A stretch of DNA of 64,000 nt from positions 1 through 64,000 of the forward strand of contig JANBPT010000037.1 of assembly GCA_027575765.1 (NCBI GenBank), in the 5' to 3' direction. The DNA comes from Tieghemiomyces parasiticus (Eukaryota > Kickxellomycota > Dimargaritomycetes > Dimargaritales > Dimargaritaceae). Position 1 is the stretch's first letter. Every line of letters begins with the position of its first letter. Positions 6,445 to 57,200 of this stretch are shown one piece after another. The notes below the pieces were generated by a model. It had not been told where the DNA came from. It was given only the letters and a program-made list of their open reading frames with translations, and did no database searches. Position numbers and translations under genes: made by a program.

Positions 6445-8024
6445 ATGTCAAAACGAGTCTCCAACGACAGTGATGACGGCTGGGGCTTTGGCAACGCCGT
6501 CAGGGCCTCATCCAAACGCACTAGAGTCAAGACCGAGGCCACCCGTTCACCTTCCACGTTGATACCCCAGGTTGTTGTCAAGGTAAGTTGGGTGCTGCTT
6601 GAATCTACTGGCTGTACCGACACGACAGACCTACACTTTGGGTCGCTCACAGCCATCAGAGGCTGGCTTAACGCTAACGTAACGCTGGCACCGCCTACTC
6701 ATGTTTCTACTAATTTAAATTGCAGAAAAAGTCGCGTCTATCGAAATTCCCTACCGATTCTGTCTACCCCGTATCGCCGCCGCCCCCAACCCAGCTACCC
6801 ACCCCACCCGTCGATGAACCAGAGCCGGTGAGAGGACCGCCTCGCCAGGGCCGGAGTGCCGTCGGCGGAGGGCGTGTCATTGACAGCGTTGTACCCGTTA
6901 AAACCCCTACGAGCCACCGTCGGCCCACGTGCCCTGACATTACGGACGTGCCGACCGCCACAGGACCGTCCTTGTCCCGCCAGTGTCGCCGCTCGTCTGG
7001 GATTCGGGGCCAGCGTCGTCGGTCCTCCATCGCGGCCAACGGTACCATCCTCACCCCACACAAACAGATTCCCAGTCGCGATTTTTACAAGCACATCTCT
7101 CCCGACGAGCCTGAACCACTCCGCATGCGACAATTACTCGCCTACGCCATCCCCAAAACCCGCGTCCGAACCCCCAAACCGTCCGCCTCCGGCCCGGACA
7201 CGACCGCGATTGGCAATATCATGGACGAATTGGTGAGGAAGTTTGAGCGCGCCATGACGCGCGGAGATGTGCCCACTTCGTGGTACCGGCTCGCCGAGGC
7301 CGTCGAGGGGGCCCGCGCCGCCGAACCGCCTACACCGCACCCGGCCAACGAGCCCCTACGCGAACGAAAGGAAGGTTTGGAGCGCAGCTTGGTGCGGTAC
7401 CGCAAGGAGCGGGATTTATGGGGCCGGCTGCTACGGCAGGCGGAGCCCTCATCAACCGATTTGTTTCCTGCATGGCCGACGGACACTGCAGCAGACCCTA
7501 TTTTGCAGGATACTATGTCACCCTGCACGGCGGTCATCAGGCAAACGCGGCGACAACTCAGCGACGGTGGAGACCTGGCATATACCGTGGATCAATTGGC
7601 CGACGCCGTCTACCTCTCCCATACTTTTCAACGCAATGCCAAGACCTTTATTGACCGACTGGCGCATGACCTTATCGTTTCCTTCCAGCGGCGGCGGGGT
7701 CTGGCATATCTCGCCTCCGACCCGCGTTTTACGATTGTCGAGACAGATGCGGCTGCGACGGACGGACATGATCCCGCCTTGGACTACCGGATACCGCGTT
7801 GCGCCGAGCAGGACCGGCGGGCCGCTCGGTTAATTCAACGGACAGCAGCCACAGACCTGAGCAGGGCCCTTGCGACGCTTAAGTCAGGTCAGGTTGACCA
7901 GCAGATGGACGGACTAGGCAAGGCCACTATGGCCAGCGCAGCCGACATCGCTGTCGAACCCATCGACCCCCACCTGCTGCTCAAGGCCCTTGCCCGAATA
8001 CCACCTTCCTCCTCGGCGTCATAG
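6445..8024 (+). CDS. DSN1: Kinetochore protein DSN1/Mis13 (MIS12/MIND complex)
   Basis: Exons 6445-6582 and 6726-8024 (phase 0, GTAAGT...TTGCAG) encode 478 aa. DSN1 is a subunit of the four-protein MIS12/MIND complex that links centromeric chromatin to the Ndc80 microtubule-binding complex. The diagnostic region is about residues 136-200. Two basic serine motifs, CRRSSG and RRRSSI, are followed by FYKHI and by PEPLRMRQLL, the signature block of the Mis13/DSN1 family. In yeast and animals the paired RRxS sites are Aurora B/Ipl1 targets that relieve autoinhibition of CENP-C/Mif2 binding; that role is inferred here. The C-terminal half is helical with several basic/acidic heptad-like stretches. 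The N-terminal 130 residues are disordered and Pro/Arg-rich. Start choice: first ATG, followed by a frame open to the splice donor. Confidence 0.88.
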
Positions 8025-21556: not shown

Positions 21557-24500
21557 ATGTCCAAGGCCACATCCGCGGCTGCCGCCAAGGCAAAACGCAG
21601 CAAGGTGAGTGGCGGACGGATGGGCGGTATGCGGTATCTGCAGTAATCAAAGGAAACCCCATATGCCACTCTCGAAGCCCACCTTTCGGCAAGTGGCGCA
21701 TTGACCCTTGCCGGTGCCTCATGGGCCCTATCCGCAGTGGCTAACCCTTAAGTATGACCCTTGCGCCGGCCATCACGTCCCCAGGCCGCTCAGGACCGCG
21801 AGTATCTGGCCCACGCCGTCCTCCTCGAGACCCGCGACATGCATGGTATGCAGCGGAATGATCACGAAGAGTGGATCATTCGCCACCTCTACCAACCCGT
21901 GTGCCCCGCGACGTTTAAGGTTCGTACGATGAGTATCTTGCAGCGAGGTCGAGAGGTAACGCCCGGGGCGTTTCTTCATCGCTCGGCCCGTTGTCCCTCC
22001 GCCTTCCCGATGTAAGCTCTCCAATCGCGTCCTAAACCTACGCTTTCCCCTCTCCCCCTCCACCCTAATGCCGCCTGACCCCTTCCCCCCCCCGTCGCTT
22101 CGACCCACCTAGGACCAAGATATCCGCATCCTTAATGTTGACCCGCGCAACGGATTTAACTGGCAGCAAACCTTGCGCAGCACTGGACCTGTCGTCCCGG
22201 GCACCACCCGACCTTCGTTTTTGCACCGCCGATTCCGCTTTACCAAGAAGACGACGTTCTACACTGTCCGCCCGCGCTACAAAATCGCTTTTATCATCGA
22301 CGGCAGCCCGTCCATGTTCACTGTGGACACCCAGGGCCGCGATATGCTAATCCGACAGGCGTTTCGTGTCTTCAAACGCTGCCTCAAGGGTCTACTGCAG
22401 GCCCCACCCTGGGACGCTCCCACCATATACGTCCGCTTCGCCGTAACGTGTCTGGCTAGCAACCAGTCCTTCGGGGACGGCCATTTAGATCCGGACCTCC
22501 CTCCGGCCCTTCTGCATGACTTGACCACGATGGAATTGCGACCTGATACCATCCACCATATCCTACAGAGTGCCCGCGAGACTCTCGACGCCCGAGCCAG
22601 TACCCTGGTCCACGATGACCCCTTCCTGGTTCCCCCGGCGGCGGCCCCCCGGTTCGATAGCCACATTAACTTTGCACTAGATGTGGCCGACTATCAGCTG
22701 GGTCTAATGCCCGACGACTGCGCTCCCGTGTTTGTCTTCATCAGCGACTCGGTGATTCGGTCCAACACGGGGTTGGACCAGCTAGGCAATCTGACCAGTT
22801 CGTTAAACCGGCTGGACACCAAGTGCCTGTTCGTCCAGGTAGGAAGCGGTCAGGGGTCCAATGTCCAGGCCAACTTCGGTTACCTCCCAGACAACAAAGC
22901 CTCACGCTTCCTAGCCTCCACCCTGGACGGGTCGTTCCTCTACGGCGACGACTGCCACGATCTACCCTGGTCGGCCTTGTCCCGAACCGACCCCCCGGTG
23001 GGCAGTCCCAGGGCGACGAATGACGCGGCCCTGGCCGCCGACGTCCCTAACCTCTACCACCAATGCATCCTCATCAAGGAGACTCAGCTGGTGCCGCCCG
23101 GCGGGACCCTCTCGCTCTACAACCTAGCCAACCGCGGTGAGCCCCGGTTCCTCGACGAACCCCGCGAAAAGACCAATAAGCTAATCAACCGGCATTTCGA
23201 CGTGAGCCGGTGGTTCGACAAGTTCCCTTGGAACCCACACAGCCTGCCACCCATGGTCGACCTGACACGAACACGCTGGCGCGAGTACATGCTCAGCGTA
23301 CCCCTGCAGATGATTATCGAGGGCCGGCTTAAGGAAGGTTTTTGCCTGCGTAACGTGATCCACCGCGCCGTGGCTGTTGACCAGAAAGACCGGGAACTTT
23401 TCATCAGTCTGGAAATGATCTATTACCCTAATGTGGTGATTCAATACCAGATCTCTCCCTCGCCGCTCCCGCTGGCCCCCACCGCCGCCGGAGGCGGAGC
23501 CTACCGCCAATACACCATCAACATCGATATCAAATCATTCAACACGTTCAGTATCGTGCTGGCCCGCGTCAACGACGCCGACGATTTCCATTCGCAGGCC
23601 CTGCGCGTGAAACTCGCCAGCCTCGAACGGTTCCTGGAACGCGTGGCCAAGCGTGACAGTATGCTCCGGACGCTGTCGGGGATCCGGCCTTACTACCTCA
23701 CAGCGGCCCACCCGTCGGCAACTCCGGCCACTAAGGCCCGGCCGCAGCCCAGCAAGGCCACACCCAGTGCTGCTGTTACCGACGTACCCGATCACGACCA
23801 AGTACTCACGCTACTCCAGGCCCACTGGGACGCGGACTGGGACCAGATGGCCTACTCAGCCAAGCGGCGGTTCAACTTCGCCGTGGGCTTCGTACCCGAG
23901 GGATGTCGCGGGGATGGGCCGTTCCCCGACCCAGCCGCCCTGGCCCGACGCGCCCACGCCAAGCTGACCGAGTTTCAACGCTACGTCATCTCCAGCTGGA
24001 AGGGCAACTCTCTGGGCGACCGGTCGTTCGTCAGCTTCTGGCCCGACAAACACAGCCGCGAGCAGCCATCGGTCAATTTCTGTGTGCATGAGTGGATCTT
24101 TGGCGGCAGCTGGGTCGTTTACGTGGATATATTCTTTTATAATTTGAGTTTGGCCGGCCGCCGCCAGATCACCGCCGACTTTGCGCACCGCGTACGCCAG
24201 TTCCGCGGCCAACCCGGCCGTGACGCCATCGTGCTTCTCAAGCGGCCCCTCTCGTTTAGCCCGCGGTCCCTCGACCACTTGAAGGTCGCCTACCCGCCCA
24301 GATATCTGGCCATGCACCGGGTCACCGCCCAGGCATCCGGTGCCTGGCGGTACCGTGTGTGGTCGGTGCAGTGGGTAGCGCTGGAGACTGGCGACGATCG
24401 ACAAAGTACCGACGATAAGGGGGCCGACGAGGGGACGGCGATAAATCCTGAACTGACCCCCGGTGCGCTAACGGTCAGACAGGTGGAAAGTGCGGCAGAC

Positions 24501-27500
24501 CCGACGCGGGACCATCTCATGGCCATGTACCGGCGGGCCTATGCGGGCGGCCTGGGCGGCGGCCGCCTCCTCATCTATCACACAGACCACGAGCTGACCC
24601 TATTCCAGGACGGCGACGCGACGCAGGGGATGCGTGAGATAACCACCACCTGTGACGTGACGGCTCGCCACCTCCGTGAGCGGGAGTGGGCCGAGCCGTT
24701 CCTGACTGACCCAGCCGTGCCCGTCGAGGACGAAGATAACGAGTCCGGGTCGGCCCAAGACCGAGCCCTGGCGGCCGTGATCCATGAGGAGCTGGGCGCC
24801 CCAGAGCCACTCACTTACCGCCTTCAAGCCGCCTACGCCACCTACTATGGTCTGGCGACCCCTGGGTTCGCCTTCCGCTACGGGTCCGGTTACTCCACCA
24901 CCCAGACCGAGCCGTCCGGTGGGGTCGTGCGCCAGTTCTGCCACCTCACCGCCCTTCTCCCGCGCAACGGATTCTACGTTCTGCACACTAATCCGCAACC
25001 GAGCGCCCGCGGGGATTTTGTGGGCGCCATGTCCCACCTGCCCGCGGAGCCAGCCCCTGACCCGGCCCTTGCCTCCCCGCCGATGCTGGCGGCTGTCGTA
25101 TTGGAGGCCGCCGAGCTACGGGCCTACGCGTCGGCGGGCGGGGATGCGGCACCGCCTTTGCCGGCCACAACCCAGGCCAAACTGGCTGCCCTGCGCATCC
25201 CCCTCCTACACGCCTACCGTGACGCGCGCTACCAGGTGGGGGCGTTCGGCACGTATTTCCGCTCGTGGGCCGCTGTCACTGACCCGGATGCGTTCCTATT
25301 CACCTCCGCCCGCGGGTTCCTGGAGCAGGCCCTCCTAGCCGATGCCGATGCCCTCATCGCTGTCCCACACGACCCCAGCTTCGATGCCCACGTGAGTGGT
25401 GTCCTCGCGGAACTCATGCGGGTGGCCCCGTCTGAACAGCGCCTGTCCTTTCACCGCCTCGTACTGACGCCGGCCCACACCGCCGGGCCCCGTCGCGAAC
25501 GCCTGTGGTTTGTACGCCGGCTGGAGGGTACCGATACCGTGCTACTAACCGCATGGGACGGTGTTACCTGCCACGCCACCGCCCAACCGGTTGCCCATTC
25601 TGCTACCCCGACCCCGTCTACCCCCTCGACGAGCAGTCGGACCAGCAGCGGGTTAGGCCTGGCCGATATGTTCGGTGAGGAAACCGTTGAAACGACTGTT
25701 GACTCCCCGGTTGACAAGGATGACAACGCGGGCGACAAACCGGCCCCGAAACAGGTCGGTACGCCCTACCCGATGGGTGACGGACGCCGAGCCACCGTAC
25801 TGGTTCAACCCGATCCCATGGCCGCAGATGTCACCTACGACCCTACCTCACCCCTAGCCAGCTGTCGGCTCCTAGTGGTCGAAGCTCGCGCCGAAAACCT
25901 CGCAGTGGAGGGACTCCTCCGCTACCACCGACGTGCCCCCGTGCTCGAGGTGCGCCCCCGCCACGACGAGGCCGACGAAATCGCCGGAACGAACCGAACC
26001 CCGTCCTGGTCTGTACATGTCCGCGGGGGTTTACCTTCCGCTGCTTCCGACACACGCGCCGCGGACACCCCGCCGCCGGCCACCTTGAACCACTTGCGCC
26101 ACCTTGCCGAACTTCAGCGGTTTGCTAATGCCCGGGCCGTGTACGGTGCCCTTCTGGCCGGTCATCCCGTTCCGGACGGAGCTGTGGCCAACATCTTGTC
26201 TCAGTTCCGGACCTTCTCCATCGATCTAGACCTCACCCCATTTCTCAAGACCCAGCTGCCCCTCCTTTCCGCAATGGGCGCGGGAAATCCCTACCACGCC
26301 GGGCTTCAGGCCGAATTCCGCGCCGCTCTCCACGCCAATTTCTCCCCGCTTGACCTCCCCGGTCATCCGCACTACTTTTTGTACCGACCCCCGCGAGCGG
26401 TGTACACGAATGTGGGCAGCCCGTCGGCGCCCACGTCGTCGTCGCGGACGCCTTCCCCTGCTCCAACGCCTCACCCGGAGGAGATCAACGAGGCCTTCCG
26501 CGCCTTTTTGGATTGCGCCCAGGCGCCTTTGTTTCTGACTCTAGCGTGTACCTACCGCCGCCGCACCCCAGCCACCCGAGGCACTGAGACCTGGACCATC
26601 CCGATGGTTGACCTCCCCACTTCATTCGTCTTTACTGACGCGGAAACCGGCCGCCTTGTCAACCTGACACCGAGCGACTCAGCGGCCAGTTTCGAACCTT
26701 CCCCGCCGACCGACGTACGCGTCACCCTCCACGTGCGATGTCTGGTCCTAGGCCACACGGAGCCTTCGAATCCGCCCCCGCCCTCCACACTGGCCCTCCG
26801 CCGCCCGCTTGCCAGCGCCAACCGACTCGCCCGGTTCCGCTGCGCTCTGGACCGCCACTTACCCGCGGGTCATGGCACCGACCTAGCGACCATCCTTATG
26901 ACCGCTCAGCAGCTAATGAATCGCGCCGTCTTGCACGGACTGGCTTATGCCTCACCACTTACGGCGCCCATGCTCCACCTGGCCGAGGCCCACGTTCGCC
27001 AGCGCCGCGCTTGGGACCCCGCCGGCTCCGAGTCGGTCCGTGAGTACGGTCTGGGATTTGTCCGCCCCGACCGCGACCGCATGACCCTCTTCATGGCCGA
27101 ACTACTCAAGGCCGACATAAGTCCTTACCGTTTCGTGGAGCGCGGAAAGATTGTCTATGTCACCAAGGATAACGACCCACTCGACGGTGACAATATCCCG
27201 CGGACCGCCCCCCGGCCGTTCTGGCTGCTCCTCACCTTTAACCGCCGCGCCCTCACTGTCCTGGCCTACGGCCCTTCGGCCCAGGCTGACCTTGCTGCCG
27301 CCGCCCAGGTCCTGCAGCCGGCGTTCAAATCAGTCAACTTTCTGACTAACCAGTTGCTGCTTCTACGTCACCTCGGGTCCACCCGCCGCGCCGATCACCT
27401 ACTGCTACCGGATGCCGCCGTAACGGCAGCGGCGAAAGTGGAAGCCGGAGCCGGGTCGGGCACGGGGTCGTCAGCCGACATGGCCACGGTTCACCGACCA

Positions 27501-30500
27501 TCGGGTATCTCCATTACCTCGTCACCCTCCCATGCATCCGCGTCGTATGGCGGACTTCCCTCCGCTGCGTCCACGAGCAGCACCGACAGTGAGGCCACCC
27601 CCAATGACGGCATCGACGATGATGAGGAAGGGCCCTCGCCCACCAGCGACTCCAACTCGGGTGACCGGACGGGAGCAATGCCCTGTGGTTCCGGTGGCTC
27701 CGGTAATGACAATGATGATGACGCATTCAGCCCGTTCGATCCCAACGAACCCGGTAGTTCCCAGGCCGAACGTCCTGTGTTTTTAGACCTGGGCCCGCAC
27801 CGCGCCTACCGTGCTGGCGAATTCGCGTGCCCCCGACTGTGCGAGCGTCATTTTGATTTGCACCCGCGGCTCTCCCCCGGCGCGGCCCTCAAGGTCTTGC
27901 GGGTCCGCTACAGCTCGCTACAGGTCCGTGGACGGGATAACGTGTTCTTAATCACCCAGCGCGATCCTGTATACTACGCCCGCATCGAGGAACGTGACTG
28001 TGAACCCGAAGAGGCCGGGACCGACGGGTCGCCGCCGCCAGGACCACTGCGCAGCCCTGGTGGCCTCAGCATCGGCAGCGATCCCACCACTCTCGGGCTG
28101 GCCCGCCGCCACTCCGATACCGCCTACCTACGATTTGGTCACACGAACGACGTTGGCGGGCCGCGCCCGCGACCCCGGCGACTCATGATTGAAGTATTTG
28201 GCGCACGGGCCGACACAGACCCTCGTATTGACGAGTTCCTGCGCGACGTGGGCGAATGTCTCGAGCACAAGGTCGCCCTTCCGGCCCTGCGCCAATACCT
28301 TTCGGCTTCCGGGGATGTGACCCGGGAAGATGTTCAGTTTCTACTCTACGCCCGCCTTGTCACCGCGCGTCGGTACCTCTTCAACGTCCACCCGGCGGTG
28401 TCCGAACCCTTCTTGCTGTTGCGCTACGTCCGCCAGCATCTGCTCCACTACCTGCGACCCCTGTCGGGCCCATGTCTCCGCTCGGTGTTGGCCGCCCACC
28501 ACCGTCAGGTTGGCGAACCTTCTGTCCTGGACGATACCCCCGGTGCCAGGCCATCCCACATCCCCCTGGAGGACTTTGTCTTTGTGTACAACGGAACCAC
28601 CAGCAGCGCCCCTGGGGCCACCCGCCTCCGCTTGGGCTCGGGCATGATCACGATCCACACGGCCTTACTAGACGCCGACGGCCGGCTGCGCGGGGAAACC
28701 CCTCCCGGCCCGGTAGCAGTCCCGACGCCCTCCAGTCTGGCTTGGTACCGTAAGGCCGCCGAGTTCCACGCGTTCCAGCGACTTGACGCAGTGGGCCCGG
28801 CCTTTCCGCTGGGTTCGGCCGTTGTAGCCTTCGACACGTGGACCGCCGGTAATGTCGATGCGGAGGCCGTACAGACTAACCTTTTACGCATCTACCGCCA
28901 AGCTGCTGGAGCCTACCTGGTCGAAATGGGCCTACGGATTGACGCCCCGCTCCCCGTACTAATGGGGCCGATAGGCCGTGAGGTCCTCGCTCACTTGGCC
29001 CGCGACTCCCCGCAGGCGTTCCCGTTCGGCCGCGCTGATCCGGACTTTCCCCTGGCGCCCGGCCCGGCCTCCGACACCTTGGCCGAGGTGGCGCGCACCG
29101 TGTTTTCATCCGAACCTAATGTACGCGTGCGGGCTTTCCAGGGTCCGGCGCCAAGCGAGGCCGTGGTGACCACAAACGAACCCTGGTCAGAGCTTATCCT
29201 ACCGTCACCCGGTGTCGATCCGACCGGGGAGAACGGACCGGCACCCCCATCGTTCACTGGCCAGATGGCACTAACCTACCTTCGCGACTACGCACTCCTG
29301 GCCTGGACTCCGCCGGAGGGTGATTCCCCTGAATCCACCGAGACCTCGCCCGTTCCGTTTGCGGTCTCCCCGCTCATGACGAATGCCCTGCGGCCCGGTG
29401 GCGGCGGCGGCAGTAACTCAGCTACGTTCCCCCGCCGTGGTGAGCGGCCAGCCTACCTGTCCGAACCCATGGACGCCGCCACAGCGTACACACCCCCGAT
29501 GACCAGCCCACGTACCACCGAGCCCCCGCTACGTAGCGTCGCCAGCTGGCGTGGGCTACCCCGCTTGTCCCCCAGTTCCGCGGACGCTATGGTCCGTCGA
29601 CCCAGTACTGTTGGTCTCCGTCGGGTGGGGCGGGCCAATTTCACCCTGCTCCACCTGACGCAGGGCCGCTGCACCGTCTATTTTTACAACCTTAAACCAG
29701 AACGCCAGCAGCACATTACCCGCCTCCTGGCAGGGCTGCACACGCGCCAGGTCGACCGTCGGCGACTCCTCTCGGCCTTTACGCTGTCGAAATTGGGACT
29801 CGGGTATATGGCCGCCGCCGAACCGGACCGCATCTTCGGCGATGTGCCTGCCGTAGTGCGTCCGGCCCACCTTCTCCGAGGGGATCCCAAGCCACTATCT
29901 GCCAATGCATTCTCGACCACAGCTCTAGCGTTAATCAACGACGCCTTACCGACCCCGCTACCCAGCCGCCGTGTTCGTCCACCTCAGCTCTCCCCGGACC
30001 TCCTCGACGTGGACAATGTGGCCCGCTGGCGCCCCCCGGCCGACCTCTGCTGTGATTACACGGCCCCCCTGGTCCCGTACTATCCGGTCGACGCGCTCCT
30101 GCGGAATGGTGGGCGCTACGTGGCTACCGTGTACGCGGACTACCTGGCTAGCGAACGGGTCCGCCGAGAACGGAATCTGTTCAGTCGGGCCGCCCGCCTC
30201 CACGCCCGTACCACCGGGTCGGATGGTACTACCACTCCTGCCGCTCCGCTGGCCATCACTGAGGACTGTGGAGGCGTGTTCGTCTTGGGGCCTTCGGCTC
30301 ACCGCTGCCAGGCCTTTAACCAGATCACCGGGGAGCTAGTCGTGCGCCCGCCCACCGAGGGGACGACAATCCATCGGTCCACCGAGTCCCTGGGCCAGTT
30401 GTTCGGCGTGCTGACCCGCGACGTGTCGGAACGCCTGCTCAAGGACTACGTAGGGTACATGGAGGCCCTGGGACTGCGCTGTCTCTTCACTCACGAGCGC

Positions 30501-32105
30501 CAACATCCGCGTCGGACCCGCACGGGGCTCCAACTGCGTACCGAGCTGTGGCGGTACCTCCAAAAACCGTTGATGGGCTACGCCCTCGGAATGACCCTCA
30601 ACGTGTCCCTCACGTTCGCGGCCACCGTCGCTATCGATCCGCGGGCCGCTGTAGTGACCGACGGCGACGGTTCGTCGAATGACGATTCCCCCAGCGATGG
30701 TGACACCACAGATGGCACGGTGGCCGGTACCGCCCGTGGGCCAGGGACCGAGACCGAACGCCAGGCCACCCGCCAGATCGTCGACCTAGAGTTCTCTAAA
30801 CTCAAGAATATGTTGCATGTACGGTCCTTCGTCTTGGACTGGCAGCTACGCGTCCTTCAGCAGCTTATATTTGGTGACGAGGCCAGCGTCCGAGAACTGT
30901 TTCCGACCTACGACCCTGACCATGGTCCGTTCACTCTGGATGTCCTCAGCTGCCTGCGCCGCCTGTGCGCCGACGGCGCGGACGGAATCAAGTTTGCTGC
31001 CCACGCCCCGCTTCACGACGCCGTACCAATTGACCCGAGCACTCAGCGGGCTACCTTGAAGTATCTATTTGACCACGCCGAAAAGTATGGCGCCGTACGG
31101 GCCCGGTCGTCCGGCGATACCCCAGTGTGTTGCTTTGACACCACCCATCCTCGCCTCCGGTTCGATCCCATCCGGTACCAGAACAAGTCGCTCTACATCA
31201 CCACCGTGGTGTTCTACCTACCTGAGTCCATGACTACCACTACCACCGCTCACACAGAAGACCCCGACGCCAAGGAGGGCCCCATAGAGCCCATCCCTTA
31301 CTACGCTATCGTGCGGGTGTACGACACCGAAGCTGACCGCCGCCGCCACCTACACAGTGTCCAGCGTCGCGTAATCGAGCGCCAGCAGCCGCAGTTCGTC
31401 CGATTCCACGACTGGTACGAACGGGCCAAGCGCTGGGAGGCCGACATGACCCGCTCGGCGCCCGTACTGGAGCTGGGCTCGCGCGAGCGTGACGAAGTTC
31501 GTGCCCTCGTCAGTCGCCGATTCCGCGATCATCTCAAGGACGCCGGTCTCAGCAAGAGCCTGCACGACGTATGGCGTAATCTGGCCGTCCCGGCGACCCG
31601 ACCGATAGGACCTAGTGGCACCAATCGCCACAGTAGGAATAGTAGTGCTGGGAGTAGCGGTGGTATTATCGGGACTAGCCGCAGCACCGTAGCTGGAATC
31701 GGTGGCGTCCCCCATGCGCTGACCTTCCCGAACCAGAGTCCGACGGACATCTGTCCGCTCGATTTTTTTACCCATGTGTGCCTCGACGACGTGCACCCGG
31801 AGGTTCACCGCATGCTCCGCCTACCCCTCAACCCGGACGGTGTTCTCGCCTTCCTCCGCGGCCGTTATCCGCGGTACCGGGTCGTCGTCAATCCCGGGGA
31901 AACCCGGTTGCTGCTGCTTAACCCTGACCATAGCGACTATTTGATTCAAGTTCTCCGCCGCCCCCGCCGCCCGCTTGAGATGTGCGCCATCGCGGGAGTT
32001 TCTCGTCATACCTTGCGCCCTGCCGAGCTGCCGTTCGTACGCCACGTTCTGGAGACCGTGGCGACGTATCTGTGGGCGGAGTGCGTGTCGAGCCTCTCCG
32101 TGTAG
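21557..32105 (+). CDS. SZT2: SZT2-like KICSTOR subunit (giant protein)
   Basis: Exons 21557-21604, 21785-21919 and 22113-32105 (phase 0 joins) encode 3391 aa; human SZT2 has about 3430. SZT2 is the scaffold of KICSTOR, which anchors GATOR1 to lysosomes so that amino-acid shortage turns off TORC1. Residues about 115-290 form a von Willebrand A-like domain with a degenerate metal site, YKIAFIIDGSPSM. Later come VFVFISDSVI and CLFVQVGSGQGSNVQANFGY, then LPDNKASRFLASTLDGSFLY, which matches the SZT2 pattern of FGHVP plus a conserved helix. The rest is long alpha/beta sequence broken by disordered, acidic Ser/Pro linkers (about residues 1160-1200, 1780-1890, 2390-2490, 2820-2860 and 3150-3190). The terminal exon of 9,993 nt is unbroken. 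Yeasts such as S. cerevisiae lack SZT2. Introns 1 and 2 use GTGAGT and GTTCGT donors. Confidence 0.8.
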
Positions 32106-42111: not shown

Positions 42112-45100
42112 ATGCTATTTGTATTTCTGATTGATACCAGCGCGTCCATGAATGCGCTCATGGCCGACGGCCTGAGCCATCTGGACTGCGCCAAGTCGGG
42201 TGTCGAGTATTTTATCAAGGTAGGTTGTTCATTGCACCGAAAGCTCATGGTCTCATCCCTTATCCACCTCCCCGGCCTCCAGTGTACCACGGTACAGCAT
42301 GGGTTCCGTTGCATATTCCGTAGCTACCGTGTTCACCCCGGTCTAATGTCTGCTTCCACCGTCTGCTCCTTCTCCGCCACTGCACATCAATCCCGTGGGT
42401 ACGTAGAAGCGGAATAACCAGCGCGACGATAAGTATATGGTGCTAACCTATGCCGAAGGCACCGACTCCATTAAGGTAAGTCCGTATGCACTGCGTGGGC
42501 CATACCGGCGGCCGTCCGTCTCAAACGTCTCTCACTCGTTCTATCTTCTACCGTGTCTCCCCTACGAGTGGCTTACCCTATGACTTGATGTGCTCAGCCC
42601 TACCGAGTGATGTGCCACTTCATTGCTCTACCATACGCAAGAAGGTCGCTGGCCGGGGCCCATGGCTGCCCACTGCGCCATAGGTCGGACTCTGGCGTCC
42701 TATCGGCGGCAATGCACAAACATAGTGCCGATCGGTACGAGCTACGTAGGGTTGATCCGTCAGGCTTGCGTGTTGGGGTTTAGATTGCCAGTCTTGGGTG
42801 GGTCACAGGCAGGGGGGATATGGCTAGGTAGAAGATACGACTGGACGATGGCTTTGGTACACTAAAGTGCCAAACCTCGGGTCAGCGGATAACGGTGTAG
42901 CACCTATCTATATGCTACTAGTAGTGGGCCGATGGAGGCAGTGGCCTGTTCAAATTTACGCCTTGTAATTAGCGCTACGAAAAGGAGGGGGTGACAAAGG
43001 GATTCCCAGAACACGGTGACCATTGGCCATCCACACTGGTTGTTCGAAAGGTGGCGGACGGCTAAGTTGACCCGCTGGTTCCCTATGCCCTGCAAGGTCC
43101 CCCCTTCATTGGGGTCGGTCGGGCCATGCATATCAGCCCCCCCCCCACTCCACTCCCAGGAGCTTTCACGCACCTACTCAAGAGGTCACGTGATATATAT
43201 GTCTTCCCCACCTTATCATGTGATCTAACCCGCACACTCTGCTACCCATTACCTTTCACGCCTCCCACTCTGACGATCAGGCCCGGATACGAGACCCCAT
43301 GCCCTTTCTTCTCGAAAAAGTCAAGAACCTCTCCGCCCATGATATGTTTAACGGAGGTCTGGCCCTCGGCTCCATATTTGACCAGCTTGGACTCTACCGC
43401 ACCCTGCAGGACATGGATTCGTTCGGGTTGGTAAGTAGCATGGGTAGCTTAATAGCCAGGTGAAATTTACTATGGAGCCTCGGCCCAAATCTCGTCCCTC
43501 TCCGCTATCCCTCTACAACTGCCTAGCTAGGCCTTATCCTAACTATTTCCTTATCCGGTCCTACCCTACTCGACTATTCCCCTATTCTCGTATTCAGGGC
43601 CGGCGGCCCTGGGCTTCTGAGCCCGCTATCGTGTTCTGGTTCACTGACGGTGCGGCCATGCTCCAACCCTCCGGGGTCGGTGACAAGCTCAACATTCCAG
43701 GATGTGTAGCACCCGGTGCTGAGCGATACCTCGAACCCTTCCGTTGGGACTATCGCCTCTACACCGTCTACCTCGACGGTGCTACCCAAATACCCGACGA
43801 ACCCCAGATCAATGCCATGTGTGAGGTTATGGGCGGTGCGGCCGTGCACGTTGGATCGCTTCGGATTTTCCAGCAGTGCATCGATACAATGCTGGGCCAG
43901 GCCAAACCTAAAGACGCTCTCCCCGGCACCCCCTTTGTGGCGCAGCCCCACGGGGTACTGGTCAACTTTGACTGTCTAACGGGTACGTCCGGCACGTTTT
44001 ATTCGGGGGGTTCGCCTCCACCTCCCCACCTCAGGACTTATTTATCGAGACTGACACTGGCTAGTAGTTTAACTGCCATTTTGAGCTGCTAGATGTCTAA
44101 CACCTCTCCCCTTTCCATCTTCCCATCGCACGGACTCGCTTCCCCACTCAAACCTCCAATTCTACGACACACAGGTGACCAGTCCCGACGCTTTGGTCGG
44201 AGCTACCATAAGCTAATCAGTCTAGCCGGGGGTGGCGGGCGCAACGCCGGCTTCTTCCCCATCCCCGAGATGTACTGGCCTGACGATACGGCACCGGTAA
44301 GTGGGACTGCTTATTAATTATCCTACGCCCGGGATTTGATTTTGCGCCGCCACCAATATCACCGGCCAGGCCCCTTTCCTCCCCTTCCAACCTAACCTCC
44401 ATGCCGCTACCCCCTGTCACCCACCCACTTTCCACTATTCTCAGCCGCCACGCAAGGCCCAGCCCACGATCCTCTTCAACCCAGTACACATGCCCATCAA
44501 CATCCCGCAGGGGTTCCCCTTCGACAAATATGTGGTGGAGGTTTGCCCGCTGACACAGGAGCTGCTCAAGCAGCCGCCCAACGTGTACTGGCAGGTGTTC
44601 GTGCCCAACAGCTACAAGAGTCCCGGGGCCGGGTTTCCGTTTGGCTTCTTGAAGGCCAATTCACTACAGACCATTGTCAATCTGTACATCCTACCATATA
44701 ACTATCCGGCCCTTTTCATCTTGCTAGGTAAGTCCTCTCTAACCACGCACGTCGTATTATTAACACGGGTCGCCGTCTCTGACACTCCCTCGTGAGGTCC
44801 AATACCCTGTCGCTGTAGCCAAGTTCGTTTACTTAACTCTATTTAATCTACTCCCTTTTACCTTTTCTTACCACACTGCTTACCAGAGAATCTTAAAAAA
44901 TCCACCAGCCAAACCCCTAGCGCCAAGTGGTACCGCGACTTTGAGGAGTATCTGAACCACACACCCCTTTACTACCTCTCCTTCCTGCGCAACGCCCTGC
45001 ACCTCTATGGCTTGGCTACGGTTGCCAACATGCAATGGGGCCCCGAAATTGTACGCATGGTGAAGCGGATGGAGATGCTGCGCGCAGCCAGTCGGTCCGA

Positions 45101-46439
45101 CGCCGAACGCATGATTGTGGCTGCCAAGCGCATGTTCCTACCTTCGACCCGAGTGCTCAAGACAGAAATGGACGAAGGTGCAGTGGTCACTGCCAATGCC
45201 TTTGACGTTCCCCGCAGCGAATTGGTGGCCCGGTTATACCGTATCAAGGCGGCTTTCGCGCTCGACTGCGTAACACCACCAGCCCAGGCCCGCACGACGG
45301 AGGATTTGGCCGACGCCGATCGTCATAGTGTGTCCATCGCCAGTATGGGTAACTTCCAGACCATCATGAATCGCAACATTGAGCAGGAACTACGCGACCC
45401 CTTGGCCGACGAGGAGCAAGTCAAGTTACAGCGGCGGACTATGTTTGGTAACCCGTACGTGCGCCTCGACAAGCGTAGCGCCTTGGACAATGTGAATGAC
45501 GACATCACGCTGGACATTAGCGAGTCCCGCGAGAATGAGGCCCCGGCCCCGTCCCCACGGCCTGGTCGCACCCGCTACCGTCGGATTCGACAGCTCTCGG
45601 GCCACGGGGGAAGCGGTACCTTCGCTTGGCCGATCGCCGTCAATGGCCCCATTTGTCCGCCCATGAAATCGCCACGGCCTACCACCACGCCCGCCACCAC
45701 GACTACCCTACCACCCCCAACCCTGGTTCCCACGCGACCGCCGAGTCCACCTGACGTAACAATGGCAGGTCCGACGCCCAAGGAGCCGCCGACAAGGATA
45801 ACAACCAGTCTGCAGGCCGCCCCCGTCCCGATCGTCGCCACCCCGCTCACACCGGACGTGCCCACACCACCCCGCAGCGACCCGGGATCGCCTGAGGGAG
45901 GCGACATGGATATTTTATCTTCATGGAAGATGGCCATGTCGGGCACTAAGAAGGAGATCGGTACGATTGACCCCGCTATCGCACCACCACCGCGGCCCCG
46001 TTCGACTTCCCCGAGCCGCGTAACCGATGGTCCCGAGCCCCAAACCTTCCAGCGGAGCTCCTCCGCGCGGGTGGAAATGGCTCGACCAACCGCTGCAGCT
46101 GTCTCGGCCAGTAAGGGCTTCGCCCACCCTGCCCCGTCCAGCGCTCCACTACCACCAGGCCCCACCGCATCCACCGGCCCTTCCCTGGCATCCTCTGCCG
46201 CTGTGATTCGCGAAAACGTTAACGAGTTTAAAAACCAGCTCCTCCGGCAATTGAAGCTCGACCCGAAGCATTACAATGAACGCGCCGTGCTCCAGCAGCT
46301 CAGCCGGATGGAGGCCAGCCCGTCTTTTAGTTCCACTCAGAAGCTGACCATCGTAAACTCGTGTGTCATTGTGGCCCGCGGGCTTCGGCGGCGGGCCGTC
46401 GTGGAGAAACTGGAACGGATCCGGCGCGCCATTTCCTAG
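42112..46439 (+). CDS. INTS6: Integrator complex subunit 6 (INTS6)
   Basis: Seven exons, 42112-42219, 42407-42475, 43281-43430, 43598-43982, 44175-44296, 44445-44727 and 44887-46439, encode 889 aa with every phase consistent; human INTS6 has 887. The start MLFVFLIDTSASMN is the INTS6 von Willebrand A domain with its DxSxS metal site (about residues 1-240). It continues with LDCAKSGVEYFIK, DKYMVLTYAEGTDSIK, FWFTDGAAM, EPFRWDYRLY and MCEVMGG. The middle domain has PFDKYVVEVCPLTQELLKQP, VYWQVFVPNS and NLYILPYNYPALF. A Pro/Thr-rich linker follows. The last 75 residues (VNEFKNQLLRQLKLDPKHYN and on) are the INTS6/SAGE1 C-terminal helical domain. INTS6 recruits PP2A to Integrator, which ends promoter-proximal Pol II transcripts. 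Intron 2 is 805 nt, much longer than the others. Confidence 0.92.
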
Positions 46440-50838: not shown

Positions 50839-53800
50839 CTAGTTCAGGGCTTGGAGAGTGGCGTGGACCTTGGCCTGCTGAGCTGGTTTAAGCTGCTCGC
50901 TAGCGTTGGCGGCCACCTGCTGCAGGATGTTCTTGAGCTGGGCGAGGTGGGGCTGGACGGCGGGGTTCCCGTCGGCAACCAGACCGCACAGGAGGTCGTA
51001 CACGGGCACGTTCTCCTCGTAATCGTTGCGGAGAGGGAGATGGCGGATCATACTGGCCACCATCTGCGGCAGTGGCACGGCCGGACTGCCGTTCCCGATG
51101 GACCGCAGGGCAATCCGGGCCAGGGCGCCGATGGCGTTATCGAGCAGGTTCTTGGTAGTGGTTGGGTTCGCCTCAGCGTGGGCGTAGACCGTCTCCAGGG
51201 CGTTGAGCACCTCCGGGTACTGCGCGGTGAGGTCGGTCGGCGTGTAGTAGATGAGGACTCCCATTCCGAACGTGGCATTGCTCCGCACTTCAGCGTCAGG
51301 GTCCGTGGTCAGGGCCCGCAGGAACAGAGCGTACAGCTGCTCCGTGAGCGGGGCCACGCCCTCCTTCAGACCCGACACGGCCTCACCCAGGCAGCCCACG
51401 GCCATGGACCGCTCCCCTTCGTCGTGCTGCGCGTCAGCATATCCGGTGATGAAGGGTACAAACACCGCGAAATAGCTGGCGAAGGCCGGGCCCAGCGCCA
51501 GGCACAGAGCGGATACCACATCGGCGGCTCCACCCGTCAGTAGCGCGTCACGCTTCTCCTGGCCTTCCTCGTCCAGGGCATTGTCCTCGTCCGCGTCGTC
51601 CTCTTGGCAGGGCGCCTTCTTCTGGAGGAGCTCGCCCAACTCATTGCACAGCTGGGTCAGGTTGGCCTCGGTATCGACCGCCGCCACCTCACTGGGCGGC
51701 GCCTCGGCAGAGACCGGGCCCGTAGCCTTGGGGTTGTACACGAGGAGGGCCGGGCCCATGGCCTTCAGGGCCTGCGACAGCTCGGCGAGGATCTGAATCA
51801 CCACGCTGACCTCCACCTCCTCAGACCAGAGCGTCATGACGGCCGGCATGATGGTGCGGATCAACATGGCCAGGTGCGGATCGACCGCGTACTGGAGGGG
51901 CAGGCCGGCGGTCCAGACCGGTTCCGGGGCGCCCGCCGTGGTGAGGCGATGGTACGTGACCAGGAATTTGAAGAGGGCGCCCACCACGGCCGTGCGCACG
52001 TTGTCGGCGTCGTGTTCGGCCAGACGGACCAGTTCGTTGACGGTCTCGAGGGTGTACGGCAGGAAGGCGCGGCCGGTGTGGTCAAACAGCTCACCAAGCA
52101 CGTCGGCGGCCACCTCCTTCTCGTCAGCCACGGCGGTGTTGACCTGTAGAAGGTCGTCGACCGACTCAATCTCCTCGTCTTCGCTGCCAGCCTCCAGGTC
52201 CTCCTCCTGGTTGCTGGGATCCATCTCAATTTGGGCGGCAGCGGCAGCCAGGGCCGGGGTGGTATGGCTGTTGGTCAGGTTATTGGGGTCGGCAAGCTGC
52301 ACTCCCTCGTCTACGCGGCAGCTGGCCAGGAGCGGTGGCACGACGTGTTCCAGGTAGGGCGCAAAGTCTTCGCCAAACACGCGGCTGATGGTTCCGAAGA
52401 AGAGAAAAGTGCAGTCGCGCAAGCGACCCGAGGGCAGGGTCAGGCCTTCAAAGGCCAAGCGCATGAAGGTGTCGAGGTGCGGGGCGAAGGTCTCCTTGCC
52501 CACGGTATCGGCCAGGACCCCCACGGTATCAATGGCGATGCCACGCAGCGAGTAGTCGTCGTCAGCGGTGGACAGGCCAAAGAGGGCGTGGACACGACGG
52601 ATCATGTCGTCAAAGTAGGGCCGGAAGGCCTCGCCACCGGCGGCGTGGGCGGCGCTACCCAGGGCAGCGGTCACGGTGATCTTGACCTTGACCTCCGGGG
52701 TAGCCAAGAGGTGGGTCAGGGCCTGCATGAGGTCGGCCAGGTAAGGCAGAACGTCGGACCCCATACCCTCGAGGATGGCATCCAGGGCATTGCACGCAAA
52801 CTTGATCACGTCCGGGTGCGGGTCGCGCATGAGCTGGAAGATGAGTGGGAGAAGACGGGCGTGCTGCGCGGCGATCTCTTCGTCAAAGTGCTCGGCAAAG
52901 GCGCCCAGGGCCATACAGGCCGCACGGCGCACCACAAACGTGGGGTCCTTGAGCCCGGCCTCCACTAATTCAATCAGAGCCGGAACCTTGCTGGCGATCA
53001 GGTCGGTGGACCACTCGATGGTCACGGCGAACCCCATCATAGCCGCCCGGCGGAAGGCAGGAGAGGGGTTGCTCATGTACTGCAAGACGAGGCCCAGGGT
53101 AGGCGGGAACACCACCGAGGGGGACAGGTGCGAGCTCAGGGCGCTGAGGGTGCTCAGCGCGGTCTTGTGGGCCAGGTCGGCGTCAAGGTCGTCATCTTCC
53201 TCGGCATCCTCATCCTCATCGTCGTCGCCTTGGGTGCCGGGGCCCTCGGCGATGATGGGGAACAGCTGCTGAATGATCCCGTCGACGAGCTTCAATTTCT
53301 GCAGCTTGTTGCGCTTGAACATGGCCGACATGGACACGAAGGACATGGCCATCCCACGCACCGAGTCTGGGTAGGCGGCATTACCGGCCACGGTCATGAA
53401 GAAGCGGATCAGCTCGGCAAAATGCTGGCTCAGGAGCGGGGTCTCGAGGACCAGCAGCGAATCAAACACGTCGAACCCATGACCCACGCCTTCCTCGTCG
53501 CCGTGGGCGATGCCATCCTCAATCACGTTGACCATGGCAGGCACCAAGGACCGAAAGGTCTGGACGTCGTGGGCATTTTCGGGCTCCAGGAACTCGGCTA
53601 CCTTACCCAGGGCACGCAGGGTGTGCACCCGCACGGCCCGGGACTCGGGATCGCGGATCGACTGGCCAAACAGGTTGAAGAGGTCGGGCAGGAACTGGCG
53701 CGGCGTGGCGGCCCCAGCAGCTGGCGAAGCGGAGGCGGCGGCCAGGTCGCCGTCGGTAATCACCTCAAACAAGGTGTAGAGCACGAACACTCCCGTCTCG

Positions 53801-54234
53801 CGGCGGTTCGGATCGGCGTTGGTGCTGAGCTCAAACAGGAACGGCAGTAGCTCGGGCCACTGCTGCTCTGGGAGGGCGATTTCGGCCACCGCCGAGATCA
53901 CCTGGGCCAGGGAGTGGCGCACGGTGGTATCCGGGTCGGCCACCACCTGCGTAAGAAGGTGCTGCTGGATCGCCTGCTGGGTCTCCGCCGGCAGCCGGGC
54001 CCAGAACGTGGACACCCGCTTGCGCAGCTCCACCGCCGCCAGCTGGCGCATCACAGGGCGAGACCCACCGTCGCCTGAGGCAAGGGCGATCTGGGCCAGG
54101 GCGGGTACGCACTCGGGCTGGTTGAAAAAGTTCTTGCGGAGAATGACCGTGATTTCTCGGATCTCCTGCGTTTCTTTGCTGCCCAAGTAGCGCTCTAGAG
54201 CTTCGAGGAGCTTGCCAAGGAACTGCGAGTCCAT
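50839..54234 (-). CDS. KAP123: Importin beta-family nuclear import receptor Kap123/importin-4
   Basis: A single exon of 1131 codons (yeast Kap123 has 1113 aa). It begins MDSQFLGKLLEALERYLGSK; residues about 60-75 (QLAAVELRKRVSTFWARLP) match the importin N-terminal domain of Kap123/IPO4. Tandem HEAT repeats fill the chain, for example VRHSLAQVISAVAEIALPEQ, SVRGMAMSFVSMSAMFKRNK and DPTFVVRRAACMALGAFAEH. An acidic loop near residue 340 (DDDEDEDAEEDDDLDADL), a typical cargo- or Ran-responsive insertion, interrupts the repeats. A second acidic segment lies near residue 680 and a third near 890. Kap123 imports ribosomal proteins and histones H3/H4 and releases them on Ran-GTP binding. Codon use is strongly biased to GC-ending codons, consistent with high expression. 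Yeast Pse1 and Kap123 are related; the N-terminus favours Kap123. Confidence 0.9.
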   Translation of the reverse strand: MDSQFLGKLLEALERYLGSKETQEIREITVILRKNFFNQPECVPALAQIALASGDGGSRPVMRQLAAVELRKRVSTFWARLPAETQQAIQQHLLTQVVADPDTTVRHSLAQVISAVAEIALPEQQWPELLPFLFELSTNADPNRRETGVFVLYTLFEVITDGDLAAASASPAAGAATPRQFLPDLFNLFGQSIRDPESRAVRVHTLRALGKVAEFLEPENAHDVQTFRSLVPAMVNVIEDGIAHGDEEGVGHGFDVFDSLLVLETPLLSQHFAELIRFFMTVAGNAAYPDSVRGMAMSFVSMSAMFKRNKLQKLKLVDGIIQQLFPIIAEGPGTQGDDDEDEDAEEDDDLDADLAHKTALSTLSALSSHLSPSVVFPPTLGLVLQYMSNPSPAFRRAAMMGFAVTIEWSTDLIASKVPALIELVEAGLKDPTFVVRRAACMALGAFAEHFDEEIAAQHARLLPLIFQLMRDPHPDVIKFACNALDAILEGMGSDVLPYLADLMQALTHLLATPEVKVKITVTAALGSAAHAAGGEAFRPYFDDMIRRVHALFGLSTADDDYSLRGIAIDTVGVLADTVGKETFAPHLDTFMRLAFEGLTLPSGRLRDCTFLFFGTISRVFGEDFAPYLEHVVPPLLASCRVDEGVQLADPNNLTNSHTTPALAAAAAQIEMDPSNQEEDLEAGSEDEEIESVDDLLQVNTAVADEKEVAADVLGELFDHTGRAFLPYTLETVNELVRLAEHDADNVRTAVVGALFKFLVTYHRLTTAGAPEPVWTAGLPLQYAVDPHLAMLIRTIMPAVMTLWSEEVEVSVVIQILAELSQALKAMGPALLVYNPKATGPVSAEAPPSEVAAVDTEANLTQLCNELGELLQKKAPCQEDDADEDNALDEEGQEKRDALLTGGAADVVSALCLALGPAFASYFAVFVPFITGYADAQHDEGERSMAVGCLGEAVSGLKEGVAPLTEQLYALFLRALTTDPDAEVRSNATFGMGVLIYYTPTDLTAQYPEVLNALETVYAHAEANPTTTKNLLDNAIGALARIALRSIGNGSPAVPLPQMVASMIRHLPLRNDYEENVPVYDLLCGLVADGNPAVQPHLAQLKNILQQVAANASEQLKPAQQAKVHATLQALN

Positions 54235-57200
54235 GATGATTAGAGGAAAGGGTGAAGGGTCAGGCGCAGACGGTGTGCTGGGAGGTGAGAAGGACCGCTC
54301 TAGTGGTGGGCCGGTGGGTCAATGAAGTAGCGTATGCGAATGCAGTTATGAGGGCGGCCAGAGGAGGGGGGCGCGGTGTAAGGTGCAATACCGAAGAGTT
54401 GAAAGAAAAAAAAAAGGTGGAGATGTGTAAAAAGATAACCAAAGTGGCTAGCGAACGAACGACAACTATGGTGACGGTTAGGGGGGGGGAAGGCAAGGGT
54501 CGAGGAGTGCGCGGCTAGTAGCAACCTACAACGGCCCCGGGCAGCCAGGGGGTGCCAAACGCTACGAGCGGAGCCCTAAACAGCAGCCTAGTAAAAAAAA
54601 ATATTCTAAAAGGGGCCCGCCAGGTGACCGCTGAGGGAAGGGAGGTCAGGCGAAATTTTGGCCCACTGCCAAATGGGAGGGGACTGTGGATCTGTGTGTG
54701 GTGAAGGGAGAGCGTATGAAGTAAGCGCAGGTGTGTGGGATTCAAAAAAGAAAAGAAAAAAACAGTGGGTGAGCGTATCAGGAGAGGAGAAAAAAAAAAA
54801 GGCAACAATGTGTCAACACTATAAACATTTAAGTACCCCCGACATCGGGCGAGGGTCTGGGAAACTTAAACTGGGATAGGCGGACCTGATAAGCCAGGAC
54901 AGCGGGGCAGGGTCAGAGTGGCTCACGCAGCATAATGAAACAGTCAGAGAGTGGGGAACACTGTGAACTACACGGATGTCACAGAGGTCCATGCAGGCTT
55001 GAATCCTATAAACATTGTTGGCGTCGAGAGCCTCAACTGCGTTGCCTTGGGCCCTTTATCGTACCGAGTCCTATGGTGGCCTACGCCGGTGGGCATCCTT
55101 ATCTACCTGCTTTCGAAGGTAATCCAGCTGGCCCTGTCTGATCAGTGCGGTAGGGGCTACCAGCCGCGCGAGAGTCTTTCGGTGCATCAGGCGGCAAGCA
55201 CCCCCCTCCCCCGCCATCCTATGCAGTCCAATGCCAGTGCCTTGTGTGCTGTCCATCGCACGCAGTCACCGTTGAAACACAGTGAGGTAGCCTGAGTGTA
55301 GAAAACTAGCGTGTGTGTGAGTAAGGGCCAGTCGGTAACAAGTACCGGTCGTTGAGGTTAACGTGGTAGAGCACCAGATGGGCCAAGACTCCATGCCACG
55401 CGTTTTCCTCACGAAGAGAGCTGGTTCACCGAAATACACCTTGAGCCCCTAAGTTACTGAACATAGCCTGGGACGTACCAACGAGGCTCATCTTCATCGG
55501 CCGTCTGGCTGACAGTTCAGCCTTGCTACGACCTACACTCTGCGATATCCTAAATTTATTAACTACACATCCTTGGTAAGGTTCGATACGACAGGATACA
55601 GTTCTGGCGAACGGTTAGATTAGGAGTGGTGACCAATCAACTACGTTGGAAAATAAAGAACCGGGAGGTGGACTCGCTTGGGGCAAGGAAAGACGTCAGG
55701 GTTTGTCAGTCAGTCCAGTACAGGAACCAGCTCTGTAGGATATGGCCTAAGGGAGGTAAGATATTATGAATAGGCTGAACAGGGGCGTCAATGGGAGTCC
55801 TTCGGAAGTTACTTTACCGCTTTATTTACCAACGGTAACCGCGCCAAGGGTCGAAGTTCTGGTTAGTTCTTTCTACAACTTTAGAACAAAAGGGTTGCGA
55901 TGAAGGGCTACTATTTTTTCCACCATTGTGAGATAATTGTAATTCTAACAAATTGTATGAACACACGACGCAGGAATGGTGGAGATATTAGTATATAGGT
56001 TAGCGGGGACGGTGCAGAGGGCGATTAACATGCTGAGCTGCATCCCAACACTTTCCATGGTGAGAGCCTGGCTAAAAACTTTTCCCTAGCCTAATAATCA
56101 TCAATGTGACGCCCCCAAGTCGCCACTTTTAATCGCAAAACGACCACGCCTTAGCTACTGCCTATGCTTGCCCATTTCACCTTCCATATTTATTTGCTTG
56201 CGTTCTACACACAACCACAACCGTAGGCACACGTGACTACGCGTCTCCTATCAACACCGCAACCAACCAGCCCACACTCGAAGAAAGGCAGTTTCAACCT
56301 GAGGGCCCCCGGCCCTTCAATACATATATATATATATTTACCTCCGCTTTGTCACCTTACTACGCTTGGATTTACCTGCTTGACCGTGCGTAGCACTCGC
56401 CAGCCCGTGGGCCCTTTCCATTACCCGGTCAATCCGCTTCGTCCCTACCCATTATTCCATTGGTGTCAACCGGTTTATTGACACCGCAGTCAACGTAGCC
56501 CACCAGGTTACCAAATTCGCTAGTAGAAAGACTCTTGTCCCTGTGAAGGTCGAACGAGCGAAAGTGGAGCTCGACCTATTTGAAGAATGGTGTGGTCCTT
56601 AAGTTGCATGATTACGTCAAAGATTCCCAGCACCCTACCTTGCTTGTTGATTAGGCACCGATCCAGGACTCCAGCGGCTTGCTTTGTATTCTTACTCCCT
56701 TCTCCTCCTGCTCAAGGTTCTCGATTTGATGCTGTAGGGGCAGTCAAACGGGAAGGTCGTGCTAATGAACAGCAGATACAGGCTTGTTACAGCTAACAGG
56801 GAGAAGAAGATGAGTCTCATCGGTTAAGTAAGTAGCGATGTCTGTCGGTGGAGAGGTAGAAGAGGAGTAATAAAGGGTAAGGTAGTTGACTAGGTACCCC
56901 AAGTTGGCGTGGAATTATAATGGGTTTGGGGTTTTACTGAGCGGGGGTGGCGGCAAGTGTAGACATTGGTTGGTTTTGGAGAGGAGGAGTCTGTTCAGCT
57001 AGTCCGATAGTCTAAGGCTAATCTCATTCGACTTCTGGCCACCAATTCCAAGTGCCAGATCTGCATTATATCGCTATAAATGTTACTATCCGATAATTTA
57101 GTAGCATAAAACATCCTCACCTGTGTTAGTGCCACAGAAGCGGGTAGGTTAGACCTCGAGCCGCATAGGGACTGGGTGAGGAACATACAATAGCATAGGG

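Follow-up and report, generated by a model that had tools for sequence, protein, structure and literature searches.

An INTS6 homolog of Tieghemiomyces parasiticus and the Integrator subunits encoded in its genome

The INTS6 gene and its product

The analyzed stretch of DNA (hereafter the window) comprises the first 64,000 nucleotides (nt) of Tieghemiomyces parasiticus contig JANBPT010000037.1 and carries at positions 42112-46439, on the forward strand, an intact gene encoding an 889-amino acid homolog of the Integrator subunit INTS6 (Table 1). In the spliced gene model, seven exons are followed by a single terminal stop, and all six introns (148-805 nt) have GT..AG borders. An initial annotation, made from the sequence alone, had described a spliced, intact gene with this start, end, strand, and product length, and the gene model agrees with it in each respect.

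The domain content identifies the product almost certainly as INTS6. A Pfam search, of the kind proposed in the initial annotation, revealed the INTS6-specific beta-barrel family PF25462 at amino acids 261-377 (126.5 bits, E 9.4e-37) and a vWA domain (VWA_2) at amino acids 4-127 (31.5 bits vs. a cut-off of 27 bits, E 3e-7). A phmmer search of the PDB gave a best E-value of 1.3e-83, with all three matched sequences named INTS6 and no others at E<=1; the alignment reached 267.5 bits over amino acids 3-459 and 19.1 bits over amino acids 473-594, and left the C-terminal domain unmatched. At the level of sequence, these matches are far beyond chance. Since vWA domains are common, the product might be some other vWA protein, but the beta-barrel and the exclusively INTS6 chains in the PDB refute that identity, to which we assign a negligible probability. 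Genome-wide, PF25462 was found in one place only, the window gene (contig C665, 104.7 bits). As in animal INTS6/DICE1 and its relatives INTS6-like and SAGE1, the vWA domain, the beta-barrel, and the NAFDVPR and FGNPY blocks follow one another in this order; unlike animal INTS6, the window protein has a long Pro/Thr-rich stretch ahead of the C-terminal domain, and DNVNDD stands where animals have the DEAD loop.

Table 1. Exons and selected features of the INTS6 gene, in window coordinates
Feature	Position	Strand	Content	Evidence
INTS6 exon 1	42112..42219	+	Amino acids 1-36; vWA start FLIDTSASMN	Gene model; VWA_2 at amino acids 4-127
INTS6 exon 2	42407..42475	+	Amino acids 37-59; vWA	GT-AG borders; PDB INTS6 alignment
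INTS6 exon 3	43281..43430	+	Amino acids 60-109; vWA; 805-nt intron upstream	Gene model; PDB INTS6 alignment
INTS6 exon 4	43598..43982	+	Amino acids 110-238; vWA end and EPFRWD block	Gene model; PDB INTS6 alignment
INTS6 exon 5	44175..44296	+	Amino acids 238-278; beta-barrel start	Gene model; PF25462 at amino acids 261-377
INTS6 exon 6	44445..44727	+	Amino acids 279-373; beta-barrel	PF25462 match
INTS6 exon 7	44887..46439	+	Amino acids 373-889 and stop; post-barrel region, NAFDVPR and FGNPY blocks, Pro/Thr-rich stretch, C-terminal domain	Gene model; PDB match at amino acids 473-594
DNVNDD, amino acids 573-578	45486..45503	+	Position equivalent to the DEAD loop by which animal INTS6 blocks PP2A (D629/E630 in human); the two acids are not retained	PDB alignment; loop survey
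C-terminal four-helix domain, last 80 amino acids	46197..46436	+	Likely INTS3-binding	AlphaFold2; Foldseek

Fungal origin and the accompanying Integrator subunits

A homolog search with the window protein retrieved 202 proteins at E<=0.001, the best 120 of which were listed. The four best belong to Dimargaris and Dispira (50-55% identity), and the later matches among those listed are mostly from Mortierellomycota, with others from Basidiobolus, Coemansia, Smittium, and chytrids and, lower in the list, from animals interspersed among them; the proteins from Dimargaris, Dispira, Mortierella, Basidiobolus, Coemansia, Smittium, and chytrids belong to the same family as the window protein. In a tree of 30 rows, all drawn from this search and thus testing placement within the family rather than against other vWA families, the window INTS6 lies inside Dimargaritales with Dimargaris and Dispira (support 100/100), and a further branch with 100/100 support has all 21 fungal rows on the same side. 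The tree has long end branches (chytrids, Balamuthia), a long Basidiobolus stem, and eight rows of odd composition, and we base on it no claim on relations among fungal phyla. A fungal origin with vertical inheritance of the gene is supported by these data. Animal contamination, which the initial annotation had named as a possible confounder, and recent animal-to-fungus transfer are ruled out by the tree, and we found no point in favor of either, leaving them a vanishingly small probability; moreover, INTS4 from this assembly matches a T. parasiticus protein at 100% identity, and a second protein of the species shares 97% identity with the INTS2 frame. Many fungal database entries already carry the names Integrator complex subunit 6 or 4, and the gene is a further member of a family already named in fungi. 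No Tieghemiomyces INTS6 occurs among the best 120 of the 202 matches, and the deposited gene set may therefore lack a sound model of it.

Seven of the 11 Integrator subunits tried were recovered in the genome, namely INTS2, INTS3, INTS4, INTS6, INTS7, INTS9, and INTS11. Except for INTS6, each was found on two contigs, the first-named of which below was the copy used in the Pfam and PDB checks; the second copies rest on family scores and, for INTS11 and INTS9, also on the frames seen. INTS11 (C503 and C1051) scored 812 bits to INTS11 vs. 351 bits to CPSF73, and its frame holds HFHLDH, keeping the HxHxDH metal site. INTS9 (C1342 and C759) scored 158 bits to INTS9 vs. 21.5 bits to Ysh1, and the frame of its upstream exon, read by eye, has NHTQ where the metal motif should be; human INTS9 has NYHC at the equivalent site, as given in part of a published account (PMC7980224). 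HFHLDH in INTS11 together with NHTQ in INTS9 forms the pattern expected for an active nuclease and its inactive partner. With INTS4 (C280 and C416; 273 bits, all four PDB matches being INTS4), the entire cleavage module is encoded. Of the backbone, the genome encodes INTS2 (C400 and C1303; PF14750, 241 bits; the single PDB match being INTS2) and INTS7 (C51 and C1183; PF24436, 210.6 bits; both PDB matches being INTS7). INTS3 (C465 and C308) matched PF10189 (180.5 bits) and, in its C-terminal HEAT part, PF24566 (30.2 bits), and the PDB matches of its N-terminal and C-terminal parts were INTS3 in three of three and six of six cases, respectively. The cleavage and polyadenylation (CPSF/CPA) machinery likewise contains an MBL/beta-CASP nuclease pair, which in this genome has genes of its own: CPSF73 (C205; 487 bits to CPSF73 vs. 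225 bits to INTS11) and CPSF100 (C333 and C1253; CPSF100_C, 73.8 bits on C333) are both distinct from the Integrator genes. On these sequence matches, we regard retention of the Integrator core in this fungus as very probable.

The six other Integrator genes and CPSF100 were each recovered in duplicate, with near-identical scores within each contig pair (C503/C1051, C1342/C759, C400/C1303, C280/C416, C308/C465, C51/C1183, and C333/C1253), and INTS6 and CPSF73 were found once. Such duplication would be expected if two haplotypes or nuclei had been left unmerged during assembly.

The recovered set is shared with the metazoan Integrator-PP2A complex, of which INTS1, INTS5, INTS8, and INTS13 had no match above the cut-off here. 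One Pfam model was used for each of these four: INTS1 (PF12432, backbone), INTS5 (PF14838), and INTS13 (PF10221) gave no candidate in the genome, which does not prove their absence, and INTS8 (PF25756) gave nothing above the cut-off, the best score being 14.5 bits (E 0.2) on contig C884. Searches suggested in the initial annotation were thus successful for INTS2, INTS4, INTS9, and INTS11, with no match above the cut-off for INTS5 and INTS8. Of the INTS10/13/14/15 tail, the search covered INTS13. The 14 control genomes matched no Integrator model, including those of the recovered subunits, and hence give no gauge of sensitivity. Because a single model was used per subunit and fungal members may have diverged, absence of INTS1, INTS5, INTS8, and INTS13 is not demonstrated. 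The C884 candidate was rejected as INTS8: in its own frame it scored 16.3 bits (E 0.004; cut-off 27), and it is a TPR protein with a higher score to the general TPR_8 model, possibly EMC2, which it resembles by eye. Likewise, hits on C643 and C507 (18.5 and 18.4 bits) were rejected as further INTS7 genes, the C643 frame being coatomer gamma.

No Mucorales name was seen among the best 120 of the 202 INTS6 matches, although INTS4 matches are plentiful there: INTS4 homologs (P0128-P0163) include many from Mucorales, Umbelopsis, Endogone, and Calcarisporiella, as well as one from Paraglomus (P0202). In these fungi, INTS6 may have been lost or may be divergent. The INTS2 search returned two proteins only, from Tieghemiomyces and Dimargaris. 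INTS4 matches are widespread in Mucor, Rhizopus, Phycomyces, and Mortierella, which are amenable to laboratory work, suggesting that Integrator could be studied in tractable fungi.

The PP2A-blocking acidic loop

In animals, an acidic loop of INTS6 blocks the PP2A active site through D629 and E630 of the DEAD motif, as described in part of a structural account (PMC11062913). In the PDB alignment, D629 lies opposite N574 of the window protein, within DNVNDD; shifting the alignment by one residue would retain the first acid and not the second. We surveyed the loop in 121 rows (the window protein and the 120 listed homologs), scoring the pattern [IVL]DE[AE][DEN] within 32 residues of the last FGNP[FY]. 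Groups were assigned by hand from source names; otherwise unplaced rows, including P0076, were counted as animal, and for P0018 and P0077 the group was taken from the adjacent rows of the list. The pattern was present in 35 of 36 animals (the exception being one nematode) and 41 of 42 Mortierellomycota, and it was missing from all 37 rows of Dimargaritales (0/5), Kickxellales (0/29), Smittium (0/1), and Basidiobolus (0/2, where the FGNP[FY] anchor itself is missing). Among the three chytrids, Geranomyces keeps the pattern, as Mortierellomycota do, and Zopfochytrium and Polyrhizophydium do not; it was found in neither the single amoebozoan (Balamuthia) nor one of two unnamed rows. In animal INTS6 the loop is conserved and has a regulatory function, and it is not family-defining in Pfam; 80 of the 121 rows showed no other scored difference.

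In most Kickxellales rows (Coemansia rows P0047-P0110), FGNPY is followed by similar stretches resembling REPRGPxNNVLARNPELSAKLGL, a shared replacement of the acidic loop.

From its presence in animals, Mortierellomycota, and one of three chytrids, the acidic PP2A blocker looks ancient, and Dimargaritales, Kickxellales, Smittium, and Basidiobolus would then have lost or rewritten it, a tentative reading to which we give less than even odds. The scored motif serves as a proxy for the loop, and the related rows represent few evolutionary events; its lack in Zopfochytrium, Polyrhizophydium, Balamuthia, one unnamed row, and one nematode speaks against a single loss. If the loop was lost, the Integrator phosphatase of these fungi would not be self-silenced, or its PP2A seat formed by INTS5/INTS8 would have changed, with the nuclease module kept. 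The loop differences would also offer natural variants for testing INTS6 control over PP2A.

Proposed role of INTS6 and neighboring genes

According to part of a 2022 review (PMC9006982), animal INTS6 makes contact with INTS2 and the shoulder, stabilizes PP2A, and uses its C-terminus to bind INTS3. What is conserved in the fungal protein appears to fit the same INTS2 seat and INTS3 tie. We hypothesize, with considerable confidence, that the window gene is a vertically inherited Dimargaritales INTS6 whose product functions within an Integrator complex that this fungus has retained. INTS6 would be seated on INTS2 via its N-terminal vWA domain and beta-barrel, would help position PP2A at the RNA polymerase II (Pol II) tail while INTS11 cleaves nascent RNA, and would hold INTS3 by its C-terminal four-helix domain. 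Such a complex would bring Pol II transcription to an early end and would probably also process 3' ends of small nuclear RNA (snRNA). We infer PP2A binding, nascent RNA cutting, and snRNA processing in this fungus from knowledge of the family. With the acidic loop apparently decayed in this lineage, any block of PP2A would have to use another route or be absent.

Two points weigh against this hypothesis. The first concerns the C-terminus. The initial annotation had reported an INTS6 match along the full length; the vWA domain, beta-barrel, and middle blocks bear this out, but the SAGE1/INTS6 C-terminal profile PF15300, found in animal INTS6, was unmatched in the window protein at E<=1 and in the genome at E<=0.001, in a search whose control, PF25462, recovered the window gene. 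The same annotation had named such a miss as evidence against its claim, and the domain is argued here from profile-profile and fold comparisons; the miss may reflect either divergence or limited sensitivity. HHalign of fungal against animal C-terminal profiles gave a probability of 39% (score 24.1) in one direction and 55% (score 26.0) in the other, compared with maxima of 8.4% and 18.9, respectively, in 150 column-shuffled controls run in the first direction. The fungal set comprised 37 rows (11 of the 47 listed fungal rows being dropped) and the animal set 18 of 32 listed, those with the anchor pattern; 43 fungal rows, including several mis-ended proteins, gave 69%, and we prefer the lower values. 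AlphaFold2 predicted four helices for the last 80 amino acids (mean predicted local distance difference test score, pLDDT, 88.4), a fold resembling the INTS3-binding domains of animal INTS6 and SAGE1: the top two Foldseek matches were 7bv7_C (INTS6 with INTS3) and 8hpp_C (SAGE1 with INTS3), both with a probability of 0.99 and weak E-values (0.24 and 0.30). The modeled domain is likely INTS3-binding.

An INTS6 that partners chiefly with INTS3 in DNA repair, as part of a SOSS-like complex, rather than controlling Pol II would agree with this predicted fold, with an INTS3 encoded with both its N-terminal and C-terminal HEAT parts, with INTS5 and INTS8 not being found by one model each, and with the review, part of which deems INTS3, INTS6, and hSSB1 likely to act separately from Integrator (PMC9006982). 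We nevertheless consider it improbable, as INTS4, INTS9, INTS11, INTS2, and INTS7 are all present, and the N-terminal half of INTS6, far better conserved than the region following it, is the part ordered in animal Integrator-PP2A structures, again according to part of that review (PMC9006982).

The second point is the PP2A arm, the less proven part of the proposed retained Integrator. INTS5 and INTS8 help seat PP2A in animals, as stated in part of a structural account (PMC11062913); the arm is not established here because neither had a match above the cut-off and PP2A itself was not searched. We find it somewhat more probable than its opposite that the arm works as in animals. The same undetected subunits, together with the missing loop pattern in Dimargaritales and Kickxellales, could instead reflect a reduced, nuclease-only Integrator that no longer binds PP2A and keeps INTS6 as a structural remnant. 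That reading seems unlikely to us, given an INTS6 intact across the vWA domain and beta-barrel with 50-55% identity within the order, and given that divergent fungal members could escape a single model. The initial claim that at least the INTS6-PP2A arm survives was thus too modest with regard to INTS4/9/11, INTS2, INTS7, and INTS3, all of which are encoded, and went too far with regard to PP2A.

The larger interest lies in the seven-subunit set and the apparent loop loss. A genome with INTS2, INTS3, INTS4, INTS6, INTS7, INTS9, and INTS11 places Integrator in fungi, whereas the 2022 review calls it, in part of its text, restricted to metazoans (PMC9006982), and a 2025 paper argues, in part, from its absence in Schizosaccharomyces pombe (PMC12624956), an absence also claimed in the initial annotation. 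The metazoan-only view is not universal, since part of a plant paper presents DSP1 as the homolog of INT4 (PMC6670113). Among open-licence papers, in result lists that were in some cases partial, no title or abstract dealt with a fungal Integrator, and the word "integrator" was not found in the main text of PMC10406608. If yeasts lost Integrator, the question arises of what took over its roles in terminating transcription near promoters and in processing snRNA 3' ends.

Among the neighboring genes, the initial annotation had linked INTS6 to Mediator through a MED16 gene in the window; the single-frame candidate is sub-threshold (Med16_N, E 0.12), and no link to INTS6 was seen. A single-frame BUB2 candidate is also sub-threshold (RabGAP-TBC, E 0.15). 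A single open frame of 3330 amino acids (22113-32102, forward strand), with a vWA-like stretch YKIAFIIDGSPSM close to its start, had no Pfam match at E<=0.001 and no PDB sequence match at E<=0.01; it possibly represents SZT2, a KICSTOR component. Ordinary neighbors are a kinetochore protein of the MIS13 (Mis12-Mtw1) family (6714-8021, forward strand) and an importin-5-like protein (50845-54318, reverse strand).

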